64,000 bases of DNA from Pseudonocardia sp. HH130630-07 (GTDB lineage: Bacteria > Actinomycetota > Actinomycetes > Mycobacteriales > Pseudonocardiaceae): NCBI RefSeq assembly GCF_001698125.1, contig NZ_CP013854.1, forward strand, positions 3,534,001 through 3,598,000, in the 5' to 3' direction. Position numbers and translations under genes: made by a program. Position 1 is the stretch's first letter; every line of letters begins with the position of its first letter. The notes under the pieces were generated by a model. The model was not told where the DNA came from. It worked only from the letters and a program-made list of their open reading frames with translations, and searched no databases. This document shows positions 32,496 through 63,877 of this stretch, one piece after another.

Positions 32496-32511
32496 CTTCA
32501 TGGAGGTGGAC

Positions 32512-37815: not shown

Positions 37816-37898
37816 GGGCGCTCCTGTCCTCGGGCTGCCGGGGTCGTGGACGGGGGAAGGGTGGGAGTCGCGCACACAAGGTCACGCTCCGCGATCGT

Positions 37899-42801: not shown

Positions 42802-42980
42802 CGTGCGACCCGGTCCGCGTCGGCCCGGGGACGACCCGCGCCGGGCGGCTCCGGGCGCCGTGCACCACCCACTCCCACACCCGGCGACGAACGGCCCCGA
42901 CGGACATCCGTCCCGTCGTCACCGTCGCTCCCGTCCGCGACCGGCTGCACCCGGCCCGACCCGTGCGAGGTATCCGATGA
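42798..42980 (+). CDS. Sixty-codon frame bridging two NRPS genes, doubtful
   Basis: It starts at a GTG overlapping the condensation-protein stop (GTGA) and ends in a TGA overlapping the next ATG (ATGA), filling the only gap in the NRPS operon. The product would be Arg/Thr/Pro-rich ([20 protein letters not shown] near the end) with no known domain; it is not MbtH. Third-position GC is high, but so is second-position GC, which argues against real coding. It may only carry ribosomes across the gap. Confidence 0.25.
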
Positions 42981-45900: not shown

Positions 45901-48900
45901 CGACGGATGGTCGATCCGGCTGCTGCTGCTGATGGTGCTGCGGCTCTACACCGATCCCGACGCGGTGGCCGCGCCGCCACCGTTCCGGGTCTACCTCGAC
46001 TGGCTCGACGGCCGGGACGACGACGAGTCGGAGCGTGCGTGGCGGCCCCTGCTCGACGGCATCACCCCGACCCTGCTGTGCCGCGACGCGGACGGCGTCG
46101 CGGCGACCCGGACGCAGACCGACGAGCTCACCGCGACCGTCCCCACCGATCTCGACGCCGCGGTCACCGCCCTGGCCCGCGCGACCGGGACCACCGCGGG
46201 CGGGGTGGCGGAGCTGGCCTGGGCGCTGGTCCTGATGCACACCACCGGGAACTCGGACGTCGTGTTCGGCACGGTGGTCTCCGGCCGCCCACCCGAGCTC
46301 GACGACGTCGAGCAGATGATCGGGCTGCTGTTCACCACGGTCCCCGCGCGGGTGCGGGTCCGCCCGGGCCGGACCGCGCGCGAGGTGCTCACCGAGCTGC
46401 ACGCGCAGCGCGGCGTCCGGCTCCAGCACTCCCACCTCGGTCTGTCCCGGCTCCAGCGGCTCGCGGGCCACCCGACGCTGTTCGACACGCTGTTCGTGGT
46501 GCAGAACCTGCCTGGTGCCGCGCCCGACGAGCGTTTCGGTCCGGCCGGGGACGTACGGATCGTCGACGCCGACGTCCGCGACGCCACGCACTACCCGGTC
46601 GGCATGGCGGTGACCCCCGCCCCCGAGGGCACCGCGCTTCGGCTGATGTTCCGCTCCGACGCGGTCGGCCGGGCCGAGGCACGCTCACTGATGGACCGCT
46701 ATCTCGCCGCACTGCGGGCGATCACGGCCGCCCCCGACCTGGCCCTGCACCGCATGGACCTGCGCGACGCGGAGGAGCGGGCCCACGAGGTCCTGGAGGG
46801 TGTCCGCGGACCCGTGGGGGAGGACTCGGTCGCCGACCTGCTCGAGGCCCAGGCCGCGCGCACCCCGGAGGCCACCGCGGTGGTGGCGGACACGGTCTCG
46901 GTGAGCTTCGCGGAGCTCACCGGGGCCGCCCGGCGGCTCGCCCGGCTGCTCCGCTCCCGCGGGGCGGTGGAGGAGCAGCGCGTGGCCCTGCTCCTGCCGC
47001 GGTCCGAGGTGATGGTCGTCGCCCTGTTCGGGGTGTTCGCCGCGCACACCGCCTACGTTCCGATCGACGCCGGGTACCTGGCGGGGCGGATCGCCGCGAT
47101 GATCGAGGAGAGCGGCCCCACCGTCGTCCTGGTGAGCACCGCGACGGTCGGGCTGCTGCCCGACGCGCTGCGGGGCGATCCGCGTGTCGTCGTGCTGGAC
47201 GCGCCGGAGACGGTCGCGGAGCTCGACGCGCTCCCGGCTGGCCCACTGTCGCAGGCGGAGAGGCCGCGCCCGGCAGGCCTCGACCACCTCGCGTATCTGA
47301 TCTTCACCTCAGGCTCGACCGGGCGGCCCAAGGGGGTCGAGGTGTCCTACCGCGGGCTCACCAACATGTTCGACAACCACCGCACCGAGATCTTCGACCC
47401 GGTCACGGCCGCACACCCCGGGCGCGGGCTGCGCATCGCGCACACCACCTCGTTCTCCTTCGACGCCTCATGGGAGCAGCTGCTGTGGCTGCTCGCCGGG
47501 CACGAGGTGCACGTGATCGACGACGAGATGCGCCGGGATCCCGACCGCCTCCTCGCCCACTTCGACCGGGTCCGGATCGACGCCTTCGACGTCACCCCGA
47601 CCTACGGCACCTATCTCGTCGAGGCCGGGCTGCTGGACCGTCCCCGACCACGTGCGGACACCGGGCGGTCCGACGCGACCGGTGTCGTGTTCGTGTCCCT
47701 CGGCGGCGAGGCGGTCGGCGAGCGGCTGTGGACACAGCTGCGGGCGGGGCGCGGGGTCGGCGGGTACAACCTGTACGGGCCGACGGAGTACACGATCAAC
47801 GCGCTGGGGGCGGACGTCGCCGACAGCGCGACCCCGAGCCTCGGCCTCCCGATCCGCAACACCCGCGCGGCCGTGCTCGGTGCGGGCCTGCTGCCGGTGC
47901 CGCCGGGTGCGGTCGGCGAGCTGTACCTCGCGGGCACCGGACTGGCCCGCGGGTACCACCATGCGCCGGGCCCGACCTCGACACGGTTCGTCGCCTGCCC
48001 CTTCGGCGAGCCGGGTGAGCGGATGTACCGGACGGGCGATCTCGTGCGGCAGCGACCGGACGGTGCGCTGGACTACCTCGGACGGGCGGACGAGCAGCTC
48101 AAGGTGCGGGGGGTGCGCGTCGAGCCCGCTGAGATCGTCGACGTCCTGGTCCGGCACGCCGCCGTCGGCCAGGCCGCTGTGGTGGGGGTGGACGACGGCC
48201 CCGCGGGGACCCGGCTGGTGGCCCATCTCGTGCCCGCGGCCGGGGCGACCGCACTCGACGTGGACGCCGTGAGGACGCACGCGGCGGCGCACCTGCCCGC
48301 CGCCCTGGTCCCCTCGGGCTGGTCCGTTCTCGACACCCTGCCCCGGACGGTCAACGGGAAACTCGACGCCGCCCGGCTCCCGGCCGTCGAGGGCCGGGCC
48401 GGCGGGTCCGCACCGCCCGAGACCGAGGAGGAGCGACGGGTCGCCGAGATCGTCGGCGAGGTGCTCGGCACGGGACCGGTGGGTGGGACCGACGACTTCT
48501 TCGCCCTCGGCGGGCATTCGCTGCTGGCGGTGCGGCTGGTCTCACGGCTGCGCACGGAGCTGGATCTCCCCGTCGGGGTCCGGGACGTCTACCAGGACTC
48601 CACGCCGGCCGCGCTGGCCCGCCTCGCCGCCGGTCCCCGATCGGGCCCGTCGGGGCTCGGCCCGGTGCTCGACCTGCGCGCGGGAGACCGGCCCGCCGTG
48701 TGGTGCCTCCCGCCCGCGGGCGGACTCGGCTGGGCCTACGCCGGCCTGCTCGCGCACGTCGAGTCGGACCGGCCGGTCCACGCCCTGCAGGACCCCGGGC
48801 TCGACGGCGGGCCCGCCGTCGCCGACTTCACCGCGCTGGTGGAGCACCACCTCGCGATGCTGCGTCGGCGCCGTCCGCAGGGTCCGTACCACCTGGTCGG

Positions 48901-49432
48901 CTGGTCCTTCGGCGGGCAGCTCGCCGTCGCGATGGCGGCCCGGCTGCGCGGGTCCGTCGCTTCGGTGACCCTGCTCGACTCGGTGCTGGCGACCCTGCCA
49001 CCGGGAGCCGAACCCGAACCCGACGAGGTGCTGCACCGGGAGGCCGTCGGGTTCCTAGCCCGCTCGGCGGGGGTCGACCCCGCGCTCGGGCTCACCGGGC
49101 TCGCGGACCTCGCGGCCCGCGGAGAGACCCTGCTGGGCGGTCTCGACCGGACCGGGCTGGAGCGGATCGTGGACGCCTACCTGCGGCACAGCCGGATGAT
49201 GGAACGCGCGGGCGTCGACCCGTACGACGGTGAGGTCCTGCTCGTCTCGGCGACCGCCGACAAGTCCGCCGCGCTGCGCGCCGAGCGGGACGCGGGGTGG
49301 CGTCGCCATCTGGGCGGCGAGCTGACGGTGGTCGACGTCGACGTCGACCACCACGGTGTCGGCACCGGGGCGGGCTGGCGGCGGATCGGTCCGCTCCTGG
49401 CCGAGCACCTGACCCGGACGGAGGCCCGATGA
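42977..49432 (+). CDS. NRPS, C-E*-C-A-PCP-TE
   Basis: 2151 residues from the ATG at 42977 (GAGG six bases upstream). Condensation domain 1 (about 40-480) has P173-H174-IAA-D178-G179. Residues 490-860 form an epimerization-like domain with SW and PVLAPG and GYG landmarks, but V550-T551 replace the two histidines. Condensation domain 2 has intact H971-H972-VLV-D976-G977. The adenylation domain follows ([14 protein letters not shown] from 1440; A4 FDASW), then a carrier with Ser1848 and a thioesterase with Ser1977 in GWSFGG and a late His in DHHGVG. The TE probably releases or cyclises the product although another NRPS gene follows. The adenylation substrate was not deduced. Confidence 0.88.
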
Positions 49433-52400
49433 GCACGTCCGACCTGGCTGCGCGCCGCGAGCTGTTCCGGCGCAGGCTCGCCGAGCGGGACCTCGAGAGC
49501 GCGGACTCCGGGCGGGTCACCCGCCGCGACAGCGACCGCGGGCCACTGTCGTTCGCCCAGCGACGGATGTGGCTGCACCAGCAGATCGCACCCGCGAGCC
49601 ATGCCTACAACGTCACGATCGCCACGACCTTCCGCGGCCCGGTCGACGACGGCCGCCTGCACGCCGCACTGCTCGGCGTGGTCGAGCGGCAGGAGGCACT
49701 GCGCACCACCTACCACCTGCTCGACTCCGGCGAGCCCGAGCAGCGGGTGCACGCGGAGCTCCCGCCGCCGGTGCAGCGGCTCGACCTGCGCGAGCGGCCG
49801 GACACGCTCGGCGGTGTCCTCGACGTCGCGGCTCGGACGCCGTTCGACCTGGCGGAACGACCGCTCCGGCTGGTGGTGGCCCGTACGGCGGTCGACGAGG
49901 TCGTCGTGTGTCTGGTCGTCCACCACATCGTCTGGGACGGGCTGTCCTACGCCTGCTGGAGCCGCGACCTCACCGCGCTCTACGCGGGCGCGACACCCGG
50001 TCGCACCGAGGTGGGCCCCGCGGACCTGGCGGCGCACGAACAGCACCGGTGGCCCCCACCGTCCCACGACGAGGACCTGGCCTTCTGGCGTGCAACGCTG
50101 GCCGACCCGCCCGCGCCGCCGACGCTGCCGAGCGGTCGCATCGCCCGGGGCCCGGCCACCGAGCGTGCCGAACGGGTCCGGGTCACGCTGCCGGCCGGCA
50201 CACCCGCGGCGCTGCGCTCGATCGCGCGCCGGCACGGGACCACGGACTTCGTCGCGTTCCTCGTCTGCCATCTGCTCGTGCTGCGGCGATTCACCGGAGC
50301 CGTGGACCTCACCGTCGGTACCACGGCGATGGAACGGGAGACTCCCGGTGCCGACGAGCTGGTGGGCAACTTCGGCAACACCCTGGCCCTGCGGGTGGAC
50401 ACCGGCGCGGCGACGGTCGGCGATCTGGTCGACCGGGTCGCGGAGGCCTGTGCCGGTGCGTTCAGCCATCGCGCGTTCTCCTTCGACCGGCTCGTCGACA
50501 CGCTGGGGCCACCCCGTGAACCGGGCCGCCCGCCCTGGTTCGACTCCCTGCTGGTGTTCCTGTCGGGTGAGGTCCGCGGGCCTGCGCTGCCCGATGTCGA
50601 CGTCCGGTTCGAGTCGGTGTTCGCGGGCGCGACCCCGTTCCCCCTCACCGTCCACGCCTTCGTCTTCCCCGACCGGTTCGACGTCGACGTCCACTTCGCC
50701 GCCGACCTGTTCGACCCGGTGACGGTCGGGGCGATGGCCGATGCGCTGGGATCGATGCTGCTCGCGGTAGCCGCGGATGCCGACCGCGCGGTCCCGGATC
50801 TGCTCTCCGCCGTCCCCGTCCCCGTCCCGGTCCTCGCCGAGGGGCCCTCTGGCGGCGTGGTGGCGGAGTCCGTCCCCGAGGCAGTGGCGCGCCGGGCCGC
50901 CACCGATCCGCGCGCCGTCGCGGTGCTCGCCGAGGCCGCCGCCGACGGGGAGACCACGCTCACCTACCGGGAGCTCGTCCGGCGGGCCGAGGACCTGGCC
51001 GGTCGGCTGGCCGCGCTGGGGGCCGGGCCCGAGACCGTCGTCGGGGTGGCCACCGACCGCTCGGCGGACCTCGTGGTGGGGGTGCTCGGGGTGCTCACCG
51101 CCGGTGCCGCGGTCCTGCTGCTGGACCCCGCCCACCCGACGGCCCGGCTGCGGGCCCTGCTCGCCGACAGCGGCACCCTCGCGGTGGTGGCCGGACCCGG
51201 CCGGGCGGACATCGTGCCGCCCGGGCGGCCGGTCGTGGACCCCCGGGCCGACGGCGGGTCGGGGTGGACCGCGCGACCGGTCCACCCGGACTCGGCGGCC
51301 TGGATCGGGTACACGTCGGGCTCGACCGGTGTGCCCAAGGCCATCGTCGTGTCGCACGCCGCGCTGCTCGCGCGCGCCGGATGGGCCCGGGAACGCTGGC
51401 CGGTCGGTCCCGGCGAGCCGCGGCTGGCCAAGAGCCCGGTGACGTTCGTCGACGCGATCAGCGAGATCGTCGAGACGTTGGTGTCCGGCGGCACGCTGGT
51501 CGTCGCCGACGAGGCGAAGATCCGAGACGGGGTGGCCCTCGCCGAGCTGCTGCGCAGACACGGTGTCCGCCATCTCATGGCGGTCCCGGGGCTGCTGGCG
51601 GCGATCGCGGACGCGCATCCGGACGCGTTGCGTGGGCTGGACCGGCTCGTCTCGACCGGGGAGGCCCTCACCTCGGGCTCGGCGTCCGCGCTGGCCGCGC
51701 TGGTCGACGACGGTGTCCTGCGGAACTCCTACGGCTGCGCGGAGCTGGCCGGTGACGTCGTCGACGGTCCGGTGCCCGCCGCCGTCTCGCCGGGCTGGGC
51801 GCACCCGGTCGGCGAACCCGGCCCCGGCGTCCGCGCGCTCGTGCTCGACCCGCGGCTGTGCCCCGTCGCGCCGGGCGCCGTCGGCGATCTCTACATCGGC
51901 GGTCTCCAGGTCGCCCGCGGCTACCAGGGAAGGCCCGGGGCGACGGCGGAGCGGTTCGTCGCCGATCCGCTCGGGTCCGGTGGCAGGCTGTTCCGCACCG
52001 GGGACCGGGCGCGCCGCGGACGCTGGGGGCTGGAGGTCCTCGGCCGTGGCGACGACCAGGTGAAGATCCGTGGCCAGCGGGTGGAGCTCGGCGAGGTCGC
52101 CGAGGTCGCCCGCGGCGCCGAGGGTGTCCGGGCGGCCGTCGCGTCGCTGCGCCCAGGAGCCGTGGGGGAGCGACTGGTGCTCCATGTCGTCGGTGATGCG
52201 GAGCCCGCCGCCGTCGAGGCACACCTGCGCGGTCGGGTGCCCGACGCCATGGTGCCCGCGGCGGTCGTGGTGGTGGGCGAGCTGCCCCTGCTGCCCAACG
52301 GCAAGGTCGACCGTGCCGCGCTGCCCGAGCCCCCCGCGGTCGTGAACCGGGACCGTCGGGCCGCCGGGACCCCGGCCGAGCGCGACCTGTGCCGTGTGGT

Positions 52401-53589
52401 GGGTGAGGTGCTCGGGATCCCCGACGTCCGCCCCGAGGACGACTTCTTCCTCCTCGGCGGGGACAGCATCAGCGCGATCCGGCTGGTCGCCGCGGCGCGG
52501 CGAACGGGCAGGCCGCTCGACGTGGCCGGGGTGTTCGCCGCCCGCACCGTGGCGGCGCTCGCCGCGTCGGCCCCGGACCGTGCGCAGGCCGCGGAACGAC
52601 CGGTCCTGCTCGACCCCGGGGCGCACCGGCTCCGTCGCGCCGGTGTCGGGCCCGTCGCCGCAGTTCTCACGCTGGCGGTTCCCGGCACCGCGAGGGTCGG
52701 GCCGGAGCGGCTGCGCGCCGCGCTCACCGAGGTCGCCGCCCGGCACGAGGCGCTGCGTCTGCGGGTTCGTGCCGGTCGCCGTGGCCTCTGGCGCGCCGCC
52801 GTCCTCGGGCCGGACGATCCGGCGGCGGCACCATCGGTCGTGACCGGCGGGGTGGCCGATGCGCTCGCCGCCCTGGCCCACGGCGGCGTCCTCGCTGCGC
52901 TGGTCGGGCCGGAGGGGACGACGCTGGTCGGTGCGGTCACGGGCCTGGACGCCACGTCGCTGGCGACGGTCGGTGCCGAGCTGACCGTGCTGCTCGACGG
53001 TGGGGCACCCGCCGGCCCCGGGAGCGACTGGCCGGCCCCCACCGTGGCCGGGGACGACGGCACCGCGTGGGGCACGGCGCTCGGCGAGGTCCCCACCCAC
53101 GATCCCGCCGGCCTCCCCGCGGACACCGACGGCGAGTCGGGTGGACGCTGCGCGAGGGGCCCGGTCCCGGGCCCGATCGACGAGGCCCACCTGGTCGCGG
53201 CGTTCGCGGTCGCGGTGCGCGAGCGGAGCGGCCGGGCGACCGCGGTGATCGACCGGGCCGTCCGTGGCCCGGCCACCGGGGTCGGCCCGCTGACCTCCAC
53301 CCATCCGCTGACGGCGACGGCCGGGACGTCGGTGGAGGACGTCGCCGAACAGGCGCGAGCGGGATCCGCCCACGCCGCGGGACGGCCCGGTCCGTCGGCC
53401 GGATCGCCGGTCCCCGACGTGCGGGTGGAGGTCGTCCCCGCCGGGCTGGAACCGGCCGGGGTGGCCCCGTACCGGGTCGTGGCGATGGCGGGCCTCGACG
53501 GGACCCTGCAGGTCGTGGTGGGGCCGGGGCTGCCCGCTGACCTGGCCGCGGACCTGCTGGAGCGTTGGTGGGAGGTGCTGGCCCAGTGA
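49429..53589 (+). CDS. NRPS, C-A-PCP-E*
   Basis: 1386 residues from an ATG overlapping the previous stop (ATGA). The condensation domain has H165-H166-IVW-D170-G171. The adenylation domain ([14 protein letters not shown] from 625) has an unusual A4 ([12 protein letters not shown]) with Asp and Glu, seen in some enzymes for modified or basic residues. A carrier with Ser1013 in [11 protein letters not shown] is followed by about 330 residues of epimerization-like fold that lacks the histidines (A1169-V1170 before LD1174-ATS). By gene order it comes last, yet it has no thioesterase. It should act before the TE-bearing protein. Confidence 0.88.
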
Positions 53590-53624: not shown

Positions 53625-55274
53625 TCAGCCCACCAGCAGGGCGGTCAGGGCCTTCTTGTCCATCTTGCCGAGGGGGGTCAGCGGCATGCTCTCGATCAGC
53701 CGGACCTCGTCGGGGACCTTGTACGCGGCGACCCCCCTCCCGTCCAGGTGGGCGGCGAGCGCGGCGCGGTCGGGTCGATGCCCGTCGCCCGCCACGACGA
53801 ACGCGACGGACCGCTCGCCCAGCTCCTGGTCGGGCCCCGCGACCAGCGCGACGGACCGGACGCCGGGATGGGCCAGGAGATGCCCCTCCACCTCCGTCGC
53901 CGCGATCTTCTCTCCCGCCCGGTTGATCTGGTCCTTTGCCCGGCCCACGACAGCCAGGTGGCCCGAGGGCAGCCGCCGCACCATGTCGCCGGTGCGGTAG
54001 AAGCCGTCGGCGGTGAAGCTGCGGGCGTTGTGCGCCCCCGCCCGGTAGTAGCCCCGGAGCGTGTACGGACCGCGGGTCAGCAGCTCGCCCTCCTCCCCGT
54101 CGGGGACCTCCGCGTCGTCCGGGCCGACGACCCGGGTCTCGTCGGCGTCGGAGATCGGGCAGCCCTGTGTCGTCGTCCGCAGCCGGTCGTCCTCGTCGAG
54201 CCTGCTCAGCGACAGCATCCCCTCGGCCATGCCGAACACCTGCTGCAGCCGCGCCCCGAACTCGGCGACCACCCGACGAGCCGTGTCGTCGGCCAGCCGG
54301 GCACTGCCGATCTGCAGGACCTGCAGGCTGGAGAGGTCCGCGGAGGTGAACTCGCGCTCGTCGAGCCACAGGGGAGTCAGCTGTGGGTTGATCGCCGCGT
54401 GGGTGACCCGCTCGCGTTCGATCAGCTCGAAGCAGTAGCCGGGGTCGGGCGTTCCCGCCATGACGACCGTGCCGCCCTGTCCCAGCGCACCGAGCACACC
54501 GGGGCAGTTCATCGTGTAGTTGAAAGCGACCGGCAGCGTGGCGAGGTACACGCAGCCCTCGGCCATCCCGGCGACCTCGGCCGCCCGTCTGCCGTTGTAG
54601 GCGTAGTCGTCGTGAGTGCGGGGGATGAGCTTGGGCAGACCGGTCGTGCCGCCGGAGAGCAGCAGCACGGCGATGTCACCGGGGCCGGCGGTCGAGGCGG
54701 GCGCACCGGCGGGCTCGGTGTGGCCCGTGGCCTCCAGCTCCGCCACCGTCACCGCACCCGTCCGGTCGCCCGGGTCGCCGAGCACCACCAGCAGCTCGAG
54801 GCTCGGCACCGCGGCCCGCACCTCGTCGGCCAGTACGCGGTGGTCGAAGCCCGCGTGGACGTCGGGCAGGACATAGGCCCGCGCTCCGCAGAGCGAGGCC
54901 AGGTGGGTCATCTCGCTGCGGCGATGGCCGGGCTGGGTGTGGACCGGGACCGCCCCGATCTTCTGCAGGGCCCACCACACCACGAGGAACTCACTGCGGT
55001 TGGGCAGCTGCACCAGGACCCGGTCGGCGGTACCCAGCCCGCGGTCGGACAGCCCACGTGCCACCCGGTCGGCGAGGGCGTCGAGCTCGCGGTAGGTGAG
55101 CCTGCGGTGGTCGTCGACCACCGCGGTGCGGTCCGCATAGGCGTCGACGAGTCGGGCCAGGACCTGCCGATACGTCTCGCCGCGCCAGAGGCCGAGCTCC
55201 CGGTAGCGATCGGCGAGCCCGCCGGGCCACGGGGTGAGGTCGAGTTCGGCGAGGGCGGTGTGATCGGTGCTCAT
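53625..55274 (-). CDS. Aryl-acid AMP ligase for siderophore synthesis (EntE/DhbE/MbtA family), salicylate-type pocket
   Basis: 549 residues from the ATG at 55274 with GGAGGA eight bases upstream. It has adenylation motifs [27 protein letters not shown] and [14 protein letters not shown], and C-terminal [10 protein letters not shown]. The family loads an aryl acid onto the aryl carrier domain, here the one at the start of the first NRPS. The pocket stretch FNYTMNC (251-257) contains Asn for the carboxylate. It ends in Cys, where 2,3-dihydroxybenzoate enzymes have Ser and salicylate enzymes have Cys. Salicylate is therefore favoured. No salicylate synthase gene is in the window. Confidence 0.88.
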
Positions 55275-55330
55275 GCTGCTGTCCTCCGATCGGCCTATAC
55301 AGACCGACAATCAGTGACTATAGTTTACTA

Positions 55331-55349
55331 TTAGGTGAGGTTAACCTAA
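55331..55349. promoter_or_regulatory. Iron box between the AMP ligase and the tail operon
   Basis: TTAGGTGAGGTTAACCTAA matches the DtxR/IdeR consensus at 17 of 19 positions, the best copy in the window. TATAGT at 55316-55321 with TTAACC 16 bases away fits a -10/-35 pair for the ligase gene. The box can repress both divergent transcripts. Confidence 0.85.
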
Positions 55350-55397: not shown

Positions 55398-56171
55398 GTG
55401 GCTGAGGTCGCCGTACGCGGAGGACCGGTCGAGTACCAGTGGCTCACGGGGGAGGAGGGCCTGGCCCCCCTAGTACTGCTGCACGAGGGGCTGGGCTGCG
55501 TCGCCACGTGGGGTCGCTTCCCGCACAGACTCGCGGCGGAGACCGGCCGGTCCGTCGTCGCCTACTCCCGGCACGGCCACGGCGGTTCTGCACCGGAGCC
55601 GCGCCCACGCCCGTTGGGCTACCTGCGCAAGGAGGCGAGCGACGCCCTGCCCGAGCTGCTCGGCGAGCTGGGAATCCTCGATCCCGTGCTGATCGGGCAC
55701 AGCGACGGGGCGTCGATCGCGCTCGCCCACGCAGCGCGCCGGCCGGTCGCGGGACTGGTGCTCATCGCGCCGCACGTGGTCGTCGAGCCACGGACCGTGG
55801 CGGGCGTCGCCGCCGCGGTCGACGAGTACGCCGAGGGCGAGCTGGCCCGCCGTCTCGCCGCGTTCCACGACGATCCCGAGGCGACGTTCCGCGGCTGGAG
55901 CGACGTGTGGCTCTCACCGGAGTTCGCGGACTTCACCATGATCGAGGAGGTCGGCCGGGTGGTCTGTCCGGTGCTGGTGATCCAGGGCGAGGACGACCGG
56001 TACGGCACCGCTCGACAGCTGGACCTGGTGGCGGAACGGGCGGCCGGGCCGGTGTGACGGGTCGAGCTGCCCGGCGTCGGCCACCAGCCCCACCTGGAGT
56101 CGCCCGGTCGGCTCTGCGCCGAGATCCGCGCGTTCCTGGAGTCCCACGTCGTCGGGCGGGTGGCGGCATGA
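55398..56171 (+). pseudogene. Alpha/beta hydrolase with an in-frame TGA at codon 220
   Basis: It starts at a GTG after GGGAGGGG. It has the nucleophile elbow LIGHSDGASIALAHA and Asp in QGEDDRYGTA. A TGA at 56055-56057 ends the frame. The same frame then continues with VELPGVGHQPHLE, which holds the catalytic His, and ends in a TGA overlapping the next gene start (ATGA) at 56168-56171. So the gene was 257 codons long and translationally coupled, and a CGA-to-TGA change is the simplest cause. The truncated product lacks the catalytic His. A role as a proof-reading or siderophore-releasing hydrolase is possible for the intact form. Confidence 0.7.
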
Positions 56172-56926
56172 GCGACTGGCTGCACCGGGTGCGCCCGGTG
56201 TCCGGGGCGCAGAGGACCACGACGGGAGACCGGCTCGTCGTGTGGCCGCACGCGGGCGGGTCGCCGGCGGCGTTCGGGTCGTTGGCGGCGGCGCTCCCGG
56301 AGATCGAGGTGTGGGGGATCGTCCCACCGGGACGTGGGCTGCGGCTCGACGAGGAGGCCGTGGTCGAGCCGGACGCGGCGGTCGCGGGGGCGGTCCGCGC
56401 CCTCGACGCGCTGCCGGGTGCCCCCGGGCGCACCGTCGTGTTCGGGCACAGCCTGGGCGGTGCGATGGCCGCGCGACTCGCCGCACACCGAGGATGCGAC
56501 CTGCTGGTCGTCTCCGGGTGGCCGGGACCCGGTCGGGTACCGCCGTCGCCGGTCGGCCGGGCGGCCGAGGAGCTCGACACCGCGGCCCTGCTGGAGTTCG
56601 TGGACCGGCTCGACGCGCCGGGGCGGGTCGAGCTGCGTGACCCCGAGCTGCAGCCGTTCCTGCTCCCGCCGTTGCTCGCGGACCTGCGGATGGGCGACCG
56701 GGTCGCCGCGTCGACGCCGGCCAGGCCCGGGATGCCGGTGGTGACGGTCGCGGGGCGTGCGGACCCGGCCTTTGGCGTCTCGGAGATCGCCGGCTGGGCC
56801 GAGCACGTGGACGTCGTCGAGGCGGTGGTCCTCGACGGCGGGCACTTCGCCGTGCTGACCGACGTCACCCCGGTCGCCGCCGCGATCCGACGCGCCCTGG
56901 CCACGAACCCGGTGGGTCTCCCGTGA
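56168..56926 (+). CDS. Type II thioesterase
   Basis: 252 residues from an ATG overlapping the end of the hydrolase frame. It has WPHAGGSPAAFGSLAAAL, then IVPPGRGLRLDE, the nucleophile in VFGHSLGGAMAARLA, and the late GGHF histidine. Such enzymes clear wrongly primed or stalled carrier domains and are common in NRPS operons. Its start depends on coupling to the hydrolase frame, so the in-frame TGA upstream might reduce its translation. Confidence 0.88.
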   Translation: MSDWLHRVRPVSGAQRTTTGDRLVVWPHAGGSPAAFGSLAAALPEIEVWGIVPPGRGLRLDEEAVVEPDAAVAGAVRALDALPGAPGRTVVFGHSLGGAMAARLAAHRGCDLLVVSGWPGPGRVPPSPVGRAAEELDTAALLEFVDRLDAPGRVELRDPELQPFLLPPLLADLRMGDRVAASTPARPGMPVVTVAGRADPAFGVSEIAGWAEHVDVVEAVVLDGGHFAVLTDVTPVAAAIRRALATNPVGLP

Positions 56927-58458
56927 CCGGACCGGGGGATCGCCACGAGCGGCTCGACGCCCTGCTCACGGACTCGGCACGGGCGAGCCCGCGCCGGATC
57001 GCGCTGGTCGACGGGGCGATCCGGCTGACCTACGCCGAGCTGGAGGCGCGGGTCGTGGAGCTGGCCGCCCGGTTGGTCGGACACGGGGTCGGACCGGGCT
57101 CCGCGGTGGGCATCCTGGTCCCGAAGGGGCACCGGGCGGCCGTCGCGCTGCTGGCCGGGCTGCGCGTCGGGGCGGTGGTGGCGCCGCTCGCGCCGAACGA
57201 CCCACCCGCCCGGCTCGCCCGGATGGCCTCGGGGGCCGGGCTCGACGTAGTCCTGGCACCGACGCCGGACGGGGCACGCCGTGCCGCGGTGGCCGCCGAG
57301 CTGGGAGTGCCCGGTGCCGAGGCCGCCGTCGGCGACGGCCTGTCCATGCTCCGCCTCGACCTGCCGCGCACGTGGGGCGCGCCCGACGGCGGGTACATCC
57401 TGTTCACCTCGGGCAGCACCGGATGGCCCAAGGGTGTCCTGCTGACCCACCGGAACGTGCTGCATTTCGTCCGCTGGGCGGTGCGGGCCCTCGACATCGG
57501 GCCCGACGACGTGTTGGGCGCCCAGGCCGCGCTCACCTTCGACCTGTCCACACTCGACGTGTTCGGCGCACTGGCCGCGGGCGCGTGCGTCACCCTGATG
57601 CCCGAGGTTCTCACCGCGTTCCCGCTCGACGTCGTCGCGTGGCTGGCGGCCGAGCGGGTCACCGTCTTCTACACGGTGCCCACCCTCTACCAGCGGATCG
57701 TCGAGGCCGGCGCGGACACCGGGACCCTGCCCACGCTGCGGACACTGCCGTTCGCCGGCGAGCCCTATCCGGTCGCGGGCCTGGAACGGCTCGTCCGCGC
57801 GTTCCCCGACGCCCGGATCGCCAACCTGTACGGCCCGACCGAGACCAACGTCTGCACCTGGACCACCCTCGCCCCGGACTGGCTGGCCGGGGACGGGCTG
57901 CCCGTGGGCCGGGCGATCGATGGCCTGTGGGTCGGACTCCTCGCCGGGGACGGCACCCTCCACACCGGGCCCGGACCGGGCGAGGTCGCGGTGGCCGGAC
58001 CCACGGTGTTCCGGGGCTATCTCGTCGAGGGTGGGCTGGAGGACCCGACCGTCGCCGTGGAGCTGCCCACCGGACCCGCCCGGGCCTACCGCACCGGCGA
58101 CCTCGGCAGGATCGACGCCGACGGCGTGCTCTGGCTGGCCGGGCGACGGGACCACCAGGTCAAGGTGCGCGGACACCGGATCGACCTGGCCGACGTCGAG
58201 GCCGCCGCCGGTGAGGTCCGGGGCGTCCGCGCCTGCGCCGCCCACGTCCGACCGGGGCCCGACGGCGGCACCCTGGTCCTGGTCGCGGCGGCCGCGGACG
58301 TCGTCGCGGAGAACGCCCTGCGGGCGGGCCTGGCGGCACGGCTTCCCCGGCGGATGCTGCCCGGGGAGATCCACCTCGTGGCGGAGCTGCCCCTCACCGA
58401 CCGCGGCAAGGTCGACCGGGCGGCCGTCGCCGCCCTCGCAGAGCCCGTCTCGGGCTGA
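56923..58458 (+). CDS. Stand-alone amino-acid adenylation enzyme (PltF/prolyl-AMP-ligase-like)
   Basis: 511 residues from a GTG overlapping the previous stop. It is a single adenylation domain with no fused carrier: YILFTSGSTGWPKGVLLTH, A4 TFDLSTLDVFG, NLYGPTETNVCTW, YRTGDLGRI, KVRGHRIDLADVE and GKVDRAAV. The block YGPTETNVCTW is one I associate with prolyl-AMP ligases of pyrrole pathways such as PltF. It should charge the free carrier protein encoded next. Proline is a reasonable first guess but other amino acids are not excluded. Confidence 0.82.
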   Translation: MTGPGDRHERLDALLTDSARASPRRIALVDGAIRLTYAELEARVVELAARLVGHGVGPGSAVGILVPKGHRAAVALLAGLRVGAVVAPLAPNDPPARLARMASGAGLDVVLAPTPDGARRAAVAAELGVPGAEAAVGDGLSMLRLDLPRTWGAPDGGYILFTSGSTGWPKGVLLTHRNVLHFVRWAVRALDIGPDDVLGAQAALTFDLSTLDVFGALAAGACVTLMPEVLTAFPLDVVAWLAAERVTVFYTVPTLYQRIVEAGADTGTLPTLRTLPFAGEPYPVAGLERLVRAFPDARIANLYGPTETNVCTWTTLAPDWLAGDGLPVGRAIDGLWVGLLAGDGTLHTGPGPGEVAVAGPTVFRGYLVEGGLEDPTVAVELPTGPARAYRTGDLGRIDADGVLWLAGRRDHQVKVRGHRIDLADVEAAAGEVRGVRACAAHVRPGPDGGTLVLVAAAADVVAENALRAGLAARLPRRMLPGEIHLVAELPLTDRGKVDRAAVAALAEPVSG

Positions 58459-58479
58459 CCCAGCGAACGGAGAACACCC

Positions 58480-58746
58480 ATGCAGGTCGAAGACGTGTGC
58501 ACCCTGGTGTCGCGCGTGGTCGCGGACGCGAGCGGGGAGACCCCGGAGATCGTGCCCGACACGCCGCTGCTGCTGTCCGGGCTGCTCGACTCGCTGACGA
58601 TCATGCGCATCGTCACCGAGATCGAGTCCGCCACCGGGGTGGCCCTCCCCGAGACGGCGATCGTCGCCCGCACGTTCCGTACCCCCGAGACGGTCCGGGC
58701 CGCCGTCGTCGCGGTGCGGGACGCCACCGCCGAGGCCGGCCGATGA
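58480..58746 (+). CDS. Free-standing acyl/peptidyl carrier protein
   Basis: 88 residues from an ATG behind CGGAGAAC. The phosphopantetheine site is Ser38 in GLLDSLTIM. It sits between the adenylation gene and two flavoprotein genes, as the PltL-type carrier does in pyrrole-2-carboxylate pathways, so oxidation is probably performed on the carrier-bound amino acid. Confidence 0.88.
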   Translation: MQVEDVCTLVSRVVADASGETPEIVPDTPLLLSGLLDSLTIMRIVTEIESATGVALPETAIVARTFRTPETVRAAVVAVRDATAEAGR

Positions 58747-59831
58747 CCGTCCTCGACGGGGTCCGCCCGGACCGCACGGCCGAGGTCGTCGCCGCTGTCG
58801 CGGGAGCGGAGTTCCGCACCCAGTGGGACGCCTACCGCACGATCGTCCCGCTCGATCCGGCGGCGTCGTCGGTCACCGCGGCCGTCGCGGCGATCGAGGA
58901 GCTCGGCGCGGCCGGCGCCGCACCGGGAGTCTGCTATGCGATGACCTCACAGCTGTTCGGACTCGCCCACCCGCTGCGGACGATGCTCGGGCCCGAGCGG
59001 CACGGCCTGATCGACGGCAGTCGGGTGCTCTGTCACGCCCTGACCGAGGAGGGCGGCGGCAGCGACCCGCTGTCGATGACCACCCGCGCAGAGCCCGGCC
59101 CCGACGGCACGTGGCGGCTCTCGGGGCGGAAGGCCTTCGTCACGGCGGCCCCGGTGGCGCAGACCGCATTGGTGTTCGCCCGCACCGCGGCCGAGCGGAC
59201 CCCCTTCTCACTGACCGCGTTCCTGGTCGACCTGGCCGCACCCGGGGTGTACCGCGACGCGACGTTCCCGAAGACGGCGCTGGTCGAGGTGCCGATGGGC
59301 GTACTGGACCTCGACGGTGTCGTCGTGCGCCCCGAGGACGTCGTCGGTGGCGAGGGCTCGGGCCTGGCCGTGCTCACCACGACCACGGTGTGGGAGCGGG
59401 GCCTGCTGCTCGCCTACGCGCTCGGCCCGATGCGCCGGGTCCTCGACGCGACCGTGGCCTGGGCCCGCGAACGGGAGCAGTTCGGCAGGCGGATGGGGAC
59501 GAGCGCGCTGGTGGCGGGCCGGATCGCGGACATGGCGCTGGCGCTGCACCGCTCGCAGGTGCTCGTGCGCGGCATGGCCGCGCGCTTCGAGGCGGGAGAG
59601 TCCGCCCGGGGTCTCGCCGACGCCGCCGCCCTGACCAAGCTCTCGGTGTCGCAGGACCACCTGGCCTTCGCCGAGCAGGCGGCGGCGCTGGGCGGTGTCC
59701 GCTCGTTCGTCGAGGACACCGGTCTCACCGCCGACCTGCTCGGCCCCGCCGCCGGGTTGGTCTATGCGGGCCCCAACGACCTGCTGCGGGTCTCGGTCGC
59801 CCGTGGCCTGGGTCTCCCGGTCGAGAACTGA
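58743..59831 (+). CDS. Acyl-CoA-dehydrogenase-fold flavoprotein 1
   Basis: 362 residues, ATGA overlap with the carrier gene. It has CHALTEEGGGSDPLSMTT (flavin contact), LSGRKAFVTAAPVAQTALVFA, and the C-terminal helix block AREREQFGRRMGTSALVAGRIADMAL. A shortened N-terminus is usual for carrier-dependent members. It is expected to abstract hydride from a carrier-bound aminoacyl group, giving an alpha,beta-unsaturated or aromatic product. Confidence 0.82.
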   Translation: MTVLDGVRPDRTAEVVAAVAGAEFRTQWDAYRTIVPLDPAASSVTAAVAAIEELGAAGAAPGVCYAMTSQLFGLAHPLRTMLGPERHGLIDGSRVLCHALTEEGGGSDPLSMTTRAEPGPDGTWRLSGRKAFVTAAPVAQTALVFARTAAERTPFSLTAFLVDLAAPGVYRDATFPKTALVEVPMGVLDLDGVVVRPEDVVGGEGSGLAVLTTTTVWERGLLLAYALGPMRRVLDATVAWAREREQFGRRMGTSALVAGRIADMALALHRSQVLVRGMAARFEAGESARGLADAAALTKLSVSQDHLAFAEQAAALGGVRSFVEDTGLTADLLGPAAGLVYAGPNDLLRVSVARGLGLPVEN

Positions 59832-59851
59832 CCCGTTCCGAGGAGGAACCG

Positions 59852-61042
59852 ATGCACGCCACCGCCCGCCGTTCCCCCGTCGAGCGCCTCGACGAGGTCC
59901 GCGCGGAACTCGCCGCGGGAGCCGGCGGGGTCGACGACGGCACCGCCGCACTCGACCCGGCCTACGACACCCTCCGCCGGGCCGGGCTCCTGTCCGCCGT
60001 GGTCCCCGCCGAGTTCGGCGGCGACGGTCTCAGCTTCCTGCAGCTGACCCGGCTCCTCGAACGGCTCGCCCTGCTCGACGGCGGGCTCGCACTGGGCTTC
60101 ACCATGCACAACGTGGCAATCGGGTCGCTGTGCGAGACCGCGGGCACTGACCTCCCACCCCGCGCGGACCGGTTCCGACGGTGGTTGCTGAGGGAGGTGG
60201 TGGAGGAACGCAAGCTGGTCGCAGCGGCGACCTCGGAGGCCGCGACGGGTGCCAAGCTGCGCGGTATCGGAACGACCTACCGGCACACGCCCGACGGTGG
60301 GTACGAGCTGACCGGACGGAAGTCGTTCGTCTCCCTGGCCGGGGTGGCCGACTACTACGTCGTCGCGGCGGCGCCCGCCGACGCGGAGGATGCCGCCGAC
60401 GGGCTGGAGGTCAGCCACTTCGTCGTCGCGCGTGACGATCCCGGCGTCGGCTTCGGCGCACTCTGGGACGGTGCCGGCCTGCGCGGGACGGCGACGGCAC
60501 CGATGTCGCTGGACGCGGTGCCGCTCCCGGCCGACCGGCTGTTCCTCGGAGTGGAGGGGATGTCGCTGTTCAAACTGGTCCGGGAGCCGCACTGGATGGT
60601 GGCGGGATACATGGGGGCGTACCTCGGTATCGCCGAGGCGACCTTCCGGGTGCTCGTCGCCGAGCTCACCGCCGATCCGGCGAAGCAGGACTGTCCGGTG
60701 GTGCAGGCGGACGTCGGGCGGATGGGTGCCGAGCTCGCCGCGGCCCGCGCGCTCGTCCACTCGGCTGCGGCCACCGTCGACGAACACCGCGGCAGCCTGG
60801 AGGCGAACACCGCGGTGCACGCGGCGAAGTACGTCGTCGGCGAGCTCGCACCGCGGCTCGCACGCGAGGCGACCGCCCGCTGCGGGTCGCGGGCGCTGCG
60901 GCGCGGCCACGAGCTCGAACGCCGGTCCCGGGAGGCGACGTTCTGCGCCGTCATGCCTGCCAAGTCCGACGAGTGCCTCGCCTACGTGGGGAAGTCCGTG
61001 CTGGCGCACGACATGTTCCGGGTGGACACGCTCGCGTGGTGA
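59852..61042 (+). CDS. Acyl-CoA-dehydrogenase-fold flavoprotein 2
   Basis: 396 residues from an ATG with GAGGAGGA upstream. It has the N-terminal helix domain (AGLLSAVVPAEFGGDGLSF), AATSEAATGAKLRGI for flavin, LTGRKSFVSLAGVADYYVV, and a C-terminal four-helix part ending AYVGKSVLAHDMFR. Its sequence differs clearly from flavoprotein 1, so the two probably act at different steps or as unlike partners. Simple pyrrole pathways need only one such enzyme, which makes this pair notable. Confidence 0.82.
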   Translation: MHATARRSPVERLDEVRAELAAGAGGVDDGTAALDPAYDTLRRAGLLSAVVPAEFGGDGLSFLQLTRLLERLALLDGGLALGFTMHNVAIGSLCETAGTDLPPRADRFRRWLLREVVEERKLVAAATSEAATGAKLRGIGTTYRHTPDGGYELTGRKSFVSLAGVADYYVVAAAPADAEDAADGLEVSHFVVARDDPGVGFGALWDGAGLRGTATAPMSLDAVPLPADRLFLGVEGMSLFKLVREPHWMVAGYMGAYLGIAEATFRVLVAELTADPAKQDCPVVQADVGRMGAELAAARALVHSAAATVDEHRGSLEANTAVHAAKYVVGELAPRLAREATARCGSRALRRGHELERRSREATFCAVMPAKSDECLAYVGKSVLAHDMFRVDTLAW

Positions 61043-62436
61043 CCCCGGTGGCCCCGCTCGCGGACGCTGTCGCAGGGCACGCCCGCGAGCGGTGGCACAA
61101 CTTCCACGCCCTTCCGCTGACCGCGATGATCGACGAGCTGCCCGACCGCTGGCGGGCCGCCTACGCCGCGGTGCTCGCCCCCGGGGCCGACCTGTCGCTG
61201 TCCGGCGCGGCCCTCGACTCGCCGTTCCGGCCGAGCGGCCCGCTGGCGCAGGCGCAGCGGCGGGCCGCCCGGTTCTTCGGTGCCGACGACACGCTGTTCG
61301 TCACCGGGGGCACGACGCTGGCCAACCACATCGCGCTCGACGCCGCTCTCGAATCCGGACCGGGGGAGCAGGCCGCCCCGCCCGTCGTCGTCCTGGACCC
61401 GAGTTGTCACCAGTCCGTGTTCTTCGCCGCGCACGGCGCCGGCGCGACCGTGCTGCCCGCGCCGTCCGGCCTGGCGTCCCGCGGAACGCGGCGGCTCGAC
61501 GCGGACGCCACCGTCGAGCTGCTGGGCGCCCGGCACCGCTCGTGTCGCCCGGTCGCGGCGGTCGTGCTCACTGCGGCCCCCTACGACGGTTCACGGCTCG
61601 CCCTGGACCGGGTGCTGCCGGCGCTCGTCGCGGCGTCGCCGCGGACCGTGTTCGTCGTGGACGAGGCCTGGGCCGCCGCGCACGCCCTGCACCCCCGGAC
61701 CGCTGCGGCCTCGACACTGTCGCTGCGATCCGAGCCGGCACGACTGATCGTCACGCAGTCCGCCCACAAGACCCTGCTCGCCCTGCGGCAGGGCGCGTAC
61801 GTGCACGTCGCCGGGGAGGAGGGACTCGTCGCCGCGGTGCGGCGGGCCTTCTTCCGGCGGCACACGTCGTCGCCGTCGTGGCCGGTCCTGGCCTCGCTCG
61901 ACCTCGCCCGCGCGCACGCCGAGCTGGAGGGGCGGGAGGCCGTCGCGCGGGCCCTGGCGCGGCGGGACCGGCTGGTCGCCGGCCTGCGCGACGACCCCCG
62001 GACCCGGGAGCTCGTCCCCACCGACGGAACAGGAGGCAACCCGATGATGGTGTCGCTGCGGCTGTCCGACGGCGTCGACGCCTCGGCCGTGCGGCGGACG
62101 CTGCTCGAGGAGCATCGCGTGGTCCTCGCCCGGGCCGTGCAGGGGTCCCTTCTGGCGCACGTCCACATCGGGGTGACCGACGCCGACGTCGACGCCCTGA
62201 CCCGGGCCCTGCGCGCGATCGCCACCGTTCCCGCGGCGGTCGGGCCCCACTGGTCCGGCGCCGTGGCCGAGGACGGTCCCGCGGTGGGCACCGTGCTCGA
62301 CGGCTTCCTGGTGACCTACCCACCCGGGGTGCCACTGGCGGGTCCGGGTGACACCTGGACCACCGACCACGCACAGGTGCTCGCCGCGCACCGGCGCGGC
62401 GGGTCCGAGGTGTTCCTCGTACCCGTCGCGCGCTGA
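61039..62436 (+). CDS. PLP-dependent enzyme of the Orn/Lys/Arg decarboxylase fold
   Basis: 465 residues from a GTG overlapping the previous stop (GTGA). It has the family pattern: RPSGPLAQAQRRAARFFGA and LFVTGGTTLANHIALDAAL, an aspartate for the pyridine nitrogen in VFVVDEAWAAAH, and the Schiff-base Lys244 in TQSAHKTLLAL. A C-terminal domain of about 100 residues resembles the small decarboxylase domain. It may make a diamine or act on a carrier-derived amino acid. A transaminase or lyase function within the same fold type cannot be excluded. Confidence 0.8.
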   Translation: MTPVAPLADAVAGHARERWHNFHALPLTAMIDELPDRWRAAYAAVLAPGADLSLSGAALDSPFRPSGPLAQAQRRAARFFGADDTLFVTGGTTLANHIALDAALESGPGEQAAPPVVVLDPSCHQSVFFAAHGAGATVLPAPSGLASRGTRRLDADATVELLGARHRSCRPVAAVVLTAAPYDGSRLALDRVLPALVAASPRTVFVVDEAWAAAHALHPRTAAASTLSLRSEPARLIVTQSAHKTLLALRQGAYVHVAGEEGLVAAVRRAFFRRHTSSPSWPVLASLDLARAHAELEGREAVARALARRDRLVAGLRDDPRTRELVPTDGTGGNPMMVSLRLSDGVDASAVRRTLLEEHRVVLARAVQGSLLAHVHIGVTDADVDALTRALRAIATVPAAVGPHWSGAVAEDGPAVGTVLDGFLVTYPPGVPLAGPGDTWTTDHAQVLAAHRRGGSEVFLVPVAR

Positions 62437-62440
62437 TCGC

Positions 62441-63877
62441 TCAGGCCGGGGCGGCGCGCCGCGCGCCGATGAGTGCGCCGGAGACCACGGCGCCGACGGC
62501 CATCGCTGCGGCGACCAGCCCGAACACCGTCGCGATGCCCTGGCCGAGCAGCTCGGGCCGCCCGACTGTCATGGCGTCGACCTGGCCGACCGCTCCGGTG
62601 AAGACCAGCCCGAGCACCGAGGTCCCGAGCGATGCGCCGACGGGGAAGAAGCTGTTGACCATCCCCGTCGCCATCCCGACCTTCTCCGGTGGCACCGCCG
62701 CCGCTGCCACCGCCTGCAGCGGGGCGTTGGCCAGGCCGTTGCCGAAGCCCCACAGGCTCAGCGCCGGGATCGCGGTCACCGGGTCCGCCGCTGCGGCCGC
62801 ATTGACCGCGATCAGCACACCGGCGACTGCGAGCATCCCGAACCCGGCCGCCAGTACCCAACGGGCGGGGACGCGGGCCTGCAGCCGCCCGCCCGCCAGC
62901 GCGCCCAGCGCGGTCGCCACGCCCAGGGGCACCAGGACGACCCCGGTAGTCAGGGCACTGAGACCGTGGCCGACCTGCAGGTAGACGATGTAGAACACCG
63001 CTCCGCCGACGGTCCCGATCCGGTTGACCATCGCAAGCACGGTGATCCCGGCGAACGCGCGGATGCGGAACAGGCCCAGGTCCAGCACCGGCGTCGGGAT
63101 CCGGCGGCAGCGCACCGAGTAGGCCGCGGCGAGCAGTACCGCGGCCACCAGGCCGACGACGGCGCCCACGGTGGCGAACCCGTTCTCCTGGGCCAGGGAC
63201 AGGCCCAGGTTCAGCGCGACGAACACCGCGGCGACCAGGGCGGCGCCGACGACGTCGAACCGCCCCGCGACGGCGGTCCCCGGCCGGTCGGCCGACACCA
63301 CACGGTAGGCGACGAGGAACGCGATGACGCCGAACGGCACGTTGACGAAGAACATCCACCGCCAGCCTCCTGCGGCGATCAGCGCGCCGCCGACCAGCGG
63401 CGCGAGGGTCGAGGCACTCGTGACGGTCGCGGTCCAGATCGCGATGGCCATCGGCCTGCGCTTCTCCTCGATCGCCCGGACCAGCAGCGGGACGACGTTC
63501 GCCGACATCACCGCGGCGGCCGCGCCCTGCACGATCCGGAAGATGTTGAGCGAGAGCATGTCCCAGGACAGCCCGCACGCCAACGACGCCAGCGTGAACC
63601 CCGCGATGCCGGCGAGGAACAGCGACCGCGAGCCCCATCGGTCCGACAGCGCGCCCGCCGGCTGCACGAGCGCGGCGAACGCGAGCGAGTAGCCGACCAC
63701 GAGCCACTGCAGGCTCACCAGCGAGGTCCCCGGTAGCTCCACCCCGATCTGCGGCAGCGCCACCGCCACGATGATCATGTCGATACCCATCAGGGCCGAC
63801 GCGATCACCACCGATGCCAGGACCCACCCTGGCCGCGACCCGTCCTGTCGGGTGCTCTCCACCTGCTCCGCCGTCAT
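62441..63877 (-). CDS. MFS exporter, DHA2 (14-helix) family, probable siderophore efflux
   Basis: 478 residues from the ATG at 63877 with GGAGG upstream. About fourteen membrane helices are seen. Motif A is GALSDRWGSRSLFLAG and motif C-like is TSASTLAPLVGGALIAAGGWRWMFFVNVPFG. Drug/siderophore exporters of this family are typical at the edge of siderophore clusters, and a weak iron box lies in its promoter region. Its stop is only four bases from that of the PLP-enzyme gene on the other strand. Confidence 0.87.
   Translation of the reverse strand: MTAEQVESTRQDGSRPGWVLASVVIASALMGIDMIIVAVALPQIGVELPGTSLVSLQWLVVGYSLAFAALVQPAGALSDRWGSRSLFLAGIAGFTLASLACGLSWDMLSLNIFRIVQGAAAAVMSANVVPLLVRAIEEKRRPMAIAIWTATVTSASTLAPLVGGALIAAGGWRWMFFVNVPFGVIAFLVAYRVVSADRPGTAVAGRFDVVGAALVAAVFVALNLGLSLAQENGFATVGAVVGLVAAVLLAAAYSVRCRRIPTPVLDLGLFRIRAFAGITVLAMVNRIGTVGGAVFYIVYLQVGHGLSALTTGVVLVPLGVATALGALAGGRLQARVPARWVLAAGFGMLAVAGVLIAVNAAAAADPVTAIPALSLWGFGNGLANAPLQAVAAAAVPPEKVGMATGMVNSFFPVGASLGTSVLGLVFTGAVGQVDAMTVGRPELLGQGIATVFGLVAAAMAVGAVVSGALIGARRAAPA

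Follow-up and report, generated by a model that had tools for sequence, protein, structure and literature searches.

Predicted biosynthesis of an iron-regulated N-hydroxypyrrole-oxazoline siderophore in Pseudonocardia sp. HH130630-07 with a pyridoxal phosphate enzyme that probably serves the peptide line

Five consecutive genes at positions 56923-62436 of a 64,000-nucleotide stretch of the Pseudonocardia sp. HH130630-07 genome (contig NZ_CP013854.1, positions 3,534,001 to 3,598,000; hereafter the window) encode an adenylation (A) enzyme, a free peptidyl carrier protein (PCP), two flavoproteins of the acyl-CoA dehydrogenase fold (ACAD1 and ACAD2) and a pyridoxal phosphate (PLP) enzyme of the Orn/Lys/Arg decarboxylase (OKR) fold. 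We consider it likely that the surrounding cluster produces an N-hydroxypyrrole-oxazoline siderophore under iron control, with the PLP enzyme feeding the third of its non-ribosomal peptide synthetases (NRPS3). N-hydroxypyrrole probably caps an undescribed iron-scavenging peptide and binds the iron. New here are the combination of genes and the part proposed for the PLP enzyme; the chemistry of the cassette itself is already known.

All five open reading frames (ORFs) lie on the forward strand, at the place and in the order and families given by an initial annotation made from the sequence without database searches: A at 56923-58458 (Pfam AMP-binding, 3e-68), PCP at 58480-58746 (PF00550, 3.8e-08, with the site GLLDSL), ACAD1 at 58743-59831 and ACAD2 at 59852-61042 (both Acyl-CoA_dh_M/1), and the PLP enzyme at 61039-62436 (OKR_DC_1, PF01276, 4.7e-31). 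The proposed translational coupling is likewise seen, with 4 nt (GTGA or ATGA) shared by the thioesterase (TE) and A genes, by PCP and ACAD1 and by ACAD2 and the PLP gene, the remaining gaps being 20-21 nt. The operon begins outside the annotated coordinates, with an alpha/beta-hydrolase gene (55398) followed by the thioesterase gene (56168). Ahead of it, 1.6 kb upstream of the A gene, we located the expected iron box, a near-consensus element of the IdeR/DmdR type (TTAGGTGAGGTTAACCTAA, 55331-55349), from which a gene annotated as a 2,3-dihydroxybenzoate (DHB)-AMP ligase runs the opposite way. The box has 2 mismatches to the consensus, with 0 such matches expected in 100 shuffles. An iron box, a siderophore-binding protein, an exporter and an NRPS with a cyclisation (Cy) domain together mark an iron-regulated siderophore cluster. 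A search for the five genes elsewhere, which had been suggested, found them in Sciscionella marina in the same order, so their neighbourhood is not due to chance.

Judged by sequence, the first four genes of the cassette, the hydrolase and the ligase (53625) match the ChmJ/I/H/G/F/K set of chalkophomycin biosynthesis (JACS 2024). In that pathway ChmG N-oxygenates prolyl-ChmI and ChmH, which alone is inactive on the prolyl-carrier, subsequently forms the N-hydroxypyrrole; ChmF hydrolyses it off the carrier, and ChmK, a predicted DHB or salicylate ligase, loads it onto ChmL (PMC11177257). A catalytic Glu kept in ChmH and a Met in ChmG form the signature of the two flavoproteins (PMC11177257). 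The window's adenylase carries the code DLLYPALVCK (residue 331 was taken by hand), a proline code of the PltF type that agrees with the PltF-like adenylase claimed initially and points to a stand-alone proline adenylase resembling ChmJ and HrmK; it is 40-52% identical to the A genes of N-hydroxypyrrole loci. The carrier is indeed free and ChmI-like, and the two flavoproteins are indeed distinct. ACAD1, a predicted prolyl-carrier dehydrogenase (ChmH-like), has its catalytic Glu218 in a VWERG motif; this residue aligns with the Glu of 5zw0, 4irn and 6cxt (the variant 6af6 carries Ala there), and 5zw0 and 4irn, both prolyl-carrier dehydrogenases, are its best PDB matches. The WER motif was present in 44 of 44 homologues checked. 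In ACAD2, a predicted ChmG-like N-oxygenase of carrier-bound proline, Met249 replaces the catalytic Glu, and the corresponding PHWM motif occurs in 48 of 53 homologues. Its structure model (predicted local distance difference test score, pLDDT, 87) is nearest in Foldseek to the N-oxygenases KijD3 (top, 25% identity), DnmZ and 3mxl, with plain acyl-CoA dehydrogenases ranking close behind. The premise that known pyrrole pathways use one flavoprotein is thus outdated, as the chm and hrm N-hydroxypyrrole routes use an N-oxygenase and a dehydrogenase (PMC11177257). As to whether the cassette's genes already belong to a characterised pathway, a question also raised by the initial annotation, four of the five do and the PLP gene does not.

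The ligase (53625-55310, reverse strand) is a DHB-ligase-like enzyme (597 bits against TIGR02275, under the cutoff of 723.55) whose pocket sequence is unlike that of DHB or salicylate ligases. Its stretch FNYTMNCPG follows a pattern, FN[YF]T[WM]NCPG, that is common to all nine ligases whose genes adjoin an N-hydroxypyrrole set (those of the window, Sciscionella, Saccharothrix, four Gordonia, Jongsikchunia and Rhodococcus yunnanensis), as opposed to HNFPLACPG in four of four salicylate-type ligases (three Rhizobium plasmids and Nocardia pseudobrasiliensis). In DhbE-type ligases, this stretch lines the pocket for the acid. The two patterns provide a practical rule for separating N-hydroxypyrrole from salicylate ligases, which are confused by annotation. 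The ChmF-like hydrolase (55398-56057, forward strand) is 50-61% identical to hydrolases adjoining N-hydroxypyrrole genes, but carries an in-frame TGA at codon 220 (56055-56057), ahead of the catalytic His region; homology resumes in the same frame to about 56170, including that region, and the relatives are intact (254-264 aa). Next to it lies the type II thioesterase (56168-56926, forward strand; PF00975, 3e-12), of which the Sciscionella cluster has a 42% identical copy.

From gene set, catalytic residues, code patterns and co-occurrence we infer the following route. Proline would be loaded onto the free carrier by the stand-alone adenylase. By analogy to the Chm enzymes, ACAD2 would oxygenate the nitrogen of the carrier-bound proline, as shown for ChmG, and ACAD1 would then oxidise the ring to the N-hydroxypyrrole, as shown for ChmH. 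The hydrolase, or perhaps the neighbouring thioesterase given the interrupted hydrolase gene, would free N-hydroxypyrrole-2-carboxylate, which the ligase is predicted to re-activate onto the aryl carrier protein (ArCP) domain of NRPS1. NRPS1 would fuse it to an oxazoline of the Thr/Ser type, and the PLP enzyme would supply the A domain of NRPS3 by decarboxylating an acidic amino acid in free form, perhaps converting Asp to beta-alanine.

The peptide line fits such a route, and the aryl-azoline siderophore line with an unusual building block that had been proposed is borne out. NRPS1 (37958-41437; ArCP-Cy-A-PCP; all genes of the line on the forward strand) is the ChmL-like start of the line, has the Thr/Ser-like code DLQYIGLIHK and is 64-66% identical to its Sciscionella and 52% to its R. 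yunnanensis counterpart. It is followed by a stand-alone condensation (C) domain (41434-42801; motif QHLLWDG; 45% to Sciscionella, 40% to Rhizobium) and by NRPS2 (42704-49432, true start probably about 42980), whose domains read C, a degenerate stretch resembling C or epimerisation (E) domains, C, A, PCP and TE; it is 46% identical over 1978 aa to a Rhizobium etli protein, and its code DAWDSGLINK is identical in three lineages. NRPS3 (49297-53589, true start downstream of 49297) consists of C-A-PCP and a partial C/E-like end and has the code VDSMVTSGDK. Degenerate C/E-like stretches without HHxxxDG, at NRPS2 residues ~565-930 and the NRPS3 C-terminus, are kept in relatives. From this architecture the product likely contains an N-hydroxypyrrolyl-oxazoline, a beta-amino acid and another residue, in whichever order and perhaps with extra acylations. 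Lys/Orn N-oxygenases are encoded in the genome, none within the window, so NRPS2 may use N-hydroxyornithine.

The PLP enzyme, a short OKR-fold decarboxylase of ~465 aa, keeps the motifs HQS, DEAW and SxHK, and K244 (PLP-binding Lys), H124 (stacking His) and D208 (Asp for the pyridine N) are invariant among five relatives. Only its central domain aligns to the curated decarboxylase model, scoring 71 bits where the cutoff is 968 and giving no full-length match, and its structure model is weak (pLDDT 64). By its gene neighbours, it belongs to the siderophore NRPS line and not to the pyrrole route. On plasmids of Rhizobium etli 8C-3, R. tumorigenes and Rhizobium sp. K1/93 the PLP gene shares 8 bp with the gene of the NRPS3 homologue, in clusters which have a salicylate synthase and lack the pyrrole genes. 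In R. yunnanensis, which has the NRPS line and N-hydroxypyrrole genes, it adjoins NRPS3, and in S. marina the five-gene run stands together with the whole NRPS line. PLP gene and an A domain of the [VI]DxM[VL]TSGDK type co-occur in all four lineages (VDSMVTSGDK, IDTMVTSGDK, IDAMLTSGDK and VDTMVTSGDK). Five Gordonia/Jongsikchunia genomes carrying N-hydroxypyrrole genes gave no match to the PLP gene; for four of these the NRPS3 A domain served as query, and the closest hit carries a different code. The PLP proteins of these siderophore clusters form one clade (98/97), apart from the classical decarboxylases and from homologues in Azospirillum and in genome G506, where the gene adjoins miaB and not an NRPS. 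On the Azospirillum plasmid (L034 9872-13924), the homologue lies beside an 852-aa AMP-binding protein, outside any NRPS cluster. Since the PLP gene tracks the code type of the NRPS3 A domain, we propose that the enzyme makes a beta-amino acid for NRPS3, probably by decarboxylating free Asp to beta-alanine, or a relative of Asp.

But, could the five coupled genes not form a single on-carrier route? The initial annotation had suggested stepwise desaturation of a carrier-bound amino acid by the two flavoproteins, followed by decarboxylation on the carrier, and the coupling and the identical order in Sciscionella would suit it. We regard this as hardly credible, as ACAD2 resembles N-oxygenases and is without the catalytic Glu, the Rhizobium plasmids and R. 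yunnanensis place the PLP gene with the NRPS line, and at most loci of the ACAD2 family no PLP gene is within reach. An on-carrier role of the PLP enzyme itself was ruled out by this distribution. A plain pyrrole-2-carboxylate or pyrroline, with ACAD2 as a helper or second dehydrogenase, would fit the kinship of ACAD1 to prolyl-carrier dehydrogenases and the way HrmM and HrmN were formerly interpreted; Met in place of Glu, the N-oxygenase neighbours by fold, the biochemistry of ChmG and the inactivity of ChmH alone on the prolyl-carrier make it very unlikely. Salicylate or DHB might instead cap the line, leaving the N-hydroxypyrrole elsewhere in the molecule or in a second metabolite. The ligase scores highest with the DHB-AMP ligase model, salicylate synthases exist outside the cluster and Rhizobium runs the same line with one. 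Yet the pocket is not of the HNFPLACPG type, ChmK was likewise predicted to be a DHB/salicylate ligase and loads N-hydroxypyrrole, no salicylate gene lies within the window's cluster, and a genome search of Sciscionella, which carries the sister cluster, found no salicylate synthase scoring above the family cutoff; we thus consider such a cap unlikely. Doubtful, though possible, is a basic substrate, Lys, Orn or Arg, whose decarboxylation would yield a di- or polyamine for VibH-like coupling by the stand-alone C domain, bypassing NRPS3. Both the OKR fold of the classical basic amino-acid decarboxylases and the conserved, apparently active QHLLWDG motif speak for it; against it stand the tracking of the NRPS3 A-domain type in four lineages, the overlap or adjacency of the two genes in Rhizobium and R. 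yunnanensis, and the fact that an amine without a carboxylate cannot be adenylated by NRPS3.

Several observations weigh against the siderophore that we favour, an N-hydroxypyrrole-oxazoline with a beta-amino acid supplied by the PLP enzyme. The OKR-fold decarboxylases of known function act, to our knowledge, on basic amino acids. That the NRPS3 code denotes a beta-amino acid follows from reference codes, in which a Val/Ile-Asp start goes with beta-amino acids, and a literature search found no paper giving these codes. The likeness to the Chm proteins is one of family, residues and gene set. The N-hydroxypyrrole cap is inferred, not proven, because two salicylate synthases above the family cutoff are encoded elsewhere in the genome (G000 C2:54491-55720 and C1:4103687-4104952), which suggests further aryl siderophores. 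Finally, with its TGA at codon 220 the hydrolase does not qualify as a functional ChmF-type enzyme, and it is doubtful that the free acid is released in Pseudonocardia sp. HH130630-07. Either a sequence error, a substitution by the thioesterase or recent damage to the pathway might explain the stop codon, and the N-hydroxypyrrole pathway may be impaired in this strain; since ChmF stands outside the four-gene core (chmGHIJ, hrmKLMN), the interruption limits chm-type release and not the core.

Transport genes flank the biosynthetic genes: two ABC transporter halves (32500-34269 and 34266-35981, forward strand, by Pfam; Sciscionella homologues 51% and 53% identical), a siderophore-binding protein of the FepB/FhuD class (35821-36948, forward strand; PF01497, 1.8e-14; PRK10957, 4e-17) and an exporter of the major facilitator superfamily (62441-63877, reverse strand; TIGR00711, 3e-63). 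A methyltransferase using S-adenosylmethionine (37003-37875, reverse strand, by Pfam) has a 42% identical copy in the R. yunnanensis cluster. Beyond these lie an IS5-type transposase to the left (29127-29957) and IS110, Mutator and DDE transposases with an integrase to the right (L120 4973-7374, 15403-17146). Among 62 genomes of the genus, the PLP enzyme is absent from the 61 others save one distant match in one, and 299 genomes of the order and 396 of the phylum yielded the window's genome plus distant or isolated homologues. Given the flanking mobile elements and the 61 congeners without a close PLP homologue, the cluster was probably acquired horizontally.

A scan of named-genome contigs with the PLP enzyme alone gave no match; with the ACAD2 alignment it gave 53 loci, of which 52 are close relatives. 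At most of them the A, PCP and ACAD1 genes are adjacent, often with the hydrolase too. The chm study counted N-hydroxypyrrole genes in 97 organisms and mentioned nearby siderophore transporters and NRPSs (PMC11177257); with our 53 loci, the cassette itself is therefore already known. On a Streptomyces sp. NBC_01369 plasmid (L032 15178-23924) the set has no NRPS within reach and is followed by genes for a flavin reductase, panD (aspartate 1-decarboxylase), a short-chain dehydrogenase/reductase, a phytanoyl-CoA dioxygenase and a zinc dehydrogenase, a different, non-assembly-line context. Metagenome-assembled genomes of the Granulosicoccus type (L088, L089, L090, L093, L096) encode ACAD2-family proteins (40-43% identity) without the PHWM Met and without an adjoining ACAD1, possibly of different activity.

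N-hydroxypyrrole is rare in natural products, and the copper binder chalkophomycin is described as the first to use it as metal ligand (PMC11177257). A siderophore capped with it would extend this ligand from copper to iron. As a plausible but tentative hypothesis, we suggest an actinobacterial and rhizobial siderophore family in which one peptide line can be capped with either salicylate or N-hydroxypyrrole. N-hydroxypyrrole-oxazoline would then be a ligand that nature uses for Fe(III), and the beta-amino acid would come from a dedicated OKR-fold PLP decarboxylase whose preference has shifted from basic to acidic substrates. Our comparison reduces the substrate of this enzyme to a one-assay question.

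With chalkophomycin chmFGHIJK(L) (Streptomyces, Lentzea; PMC11177257, PMC11085572) the window shares the proline adenylase, free carrier, hydrolase, KijD3-like ACAD-fold N-oxygenase with Met, ACAD with Glu, DHB-type ligase and the T-Cy NRPS start. It differs by its iron box, FepB/FhuD-type binding protein, stand-alone C domain, TE, PLP decarboxylase, an additional NRPS3 whose A domain is beta-amino-acid-like and the interrupted hydrolase. Genes for SznF/GrbD-type N-nitrosation, graminine or polyketide synthases were not among the annotated cluster ORFs, though no search was aimed at such genes. Hormaomycin is not a siderophore, and its pyrrole is additionally chlorinated. Its hrmKLMN genes are the same four-gene N-hydroxypyrrole set (PMC11177257). 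The pyrrole and pyrroline pathways of PltE/PltF/PltL, RedW, Bmp3 and AnaB/C/D have in common with the window the proline adenylase, carrier and ACAD with catalytic Glu, but use a single flavoprotein without an N-oxygenase. LdcI, SpeF and AdiA (Lys, Orn and Arg decarboxylases) share the OKR_DC_1 domain and PLP-site motifs with the PLP enzyme, yet measure 700-750 aa and fall in a separate clade. Kasichelins (kas) resemble the predicted product in their aryl-oxazoline, beta-amino-acid linker and three-module line; their cap is a catechol or phenol, their beta-alanine or beta-aminoisobutyric acid is proposed to stem from pyrimidine breakdown, and no PLP decarboxylase is described (PMC12305651). 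The uncharacterised Rhizobium salicylate clusters (pRsp8C3a, pRt1078, K1/93) parallel the line itself in NRPS2 (46%), NRPS3 (37%), stand-alone C domain (40%), ligase (48%) and PLP enzyme (42%), whereas a salicylate synthase replaces the N-hydroxypyrrole genes, Thr is adenylated in trans and a TonB receptor is present.

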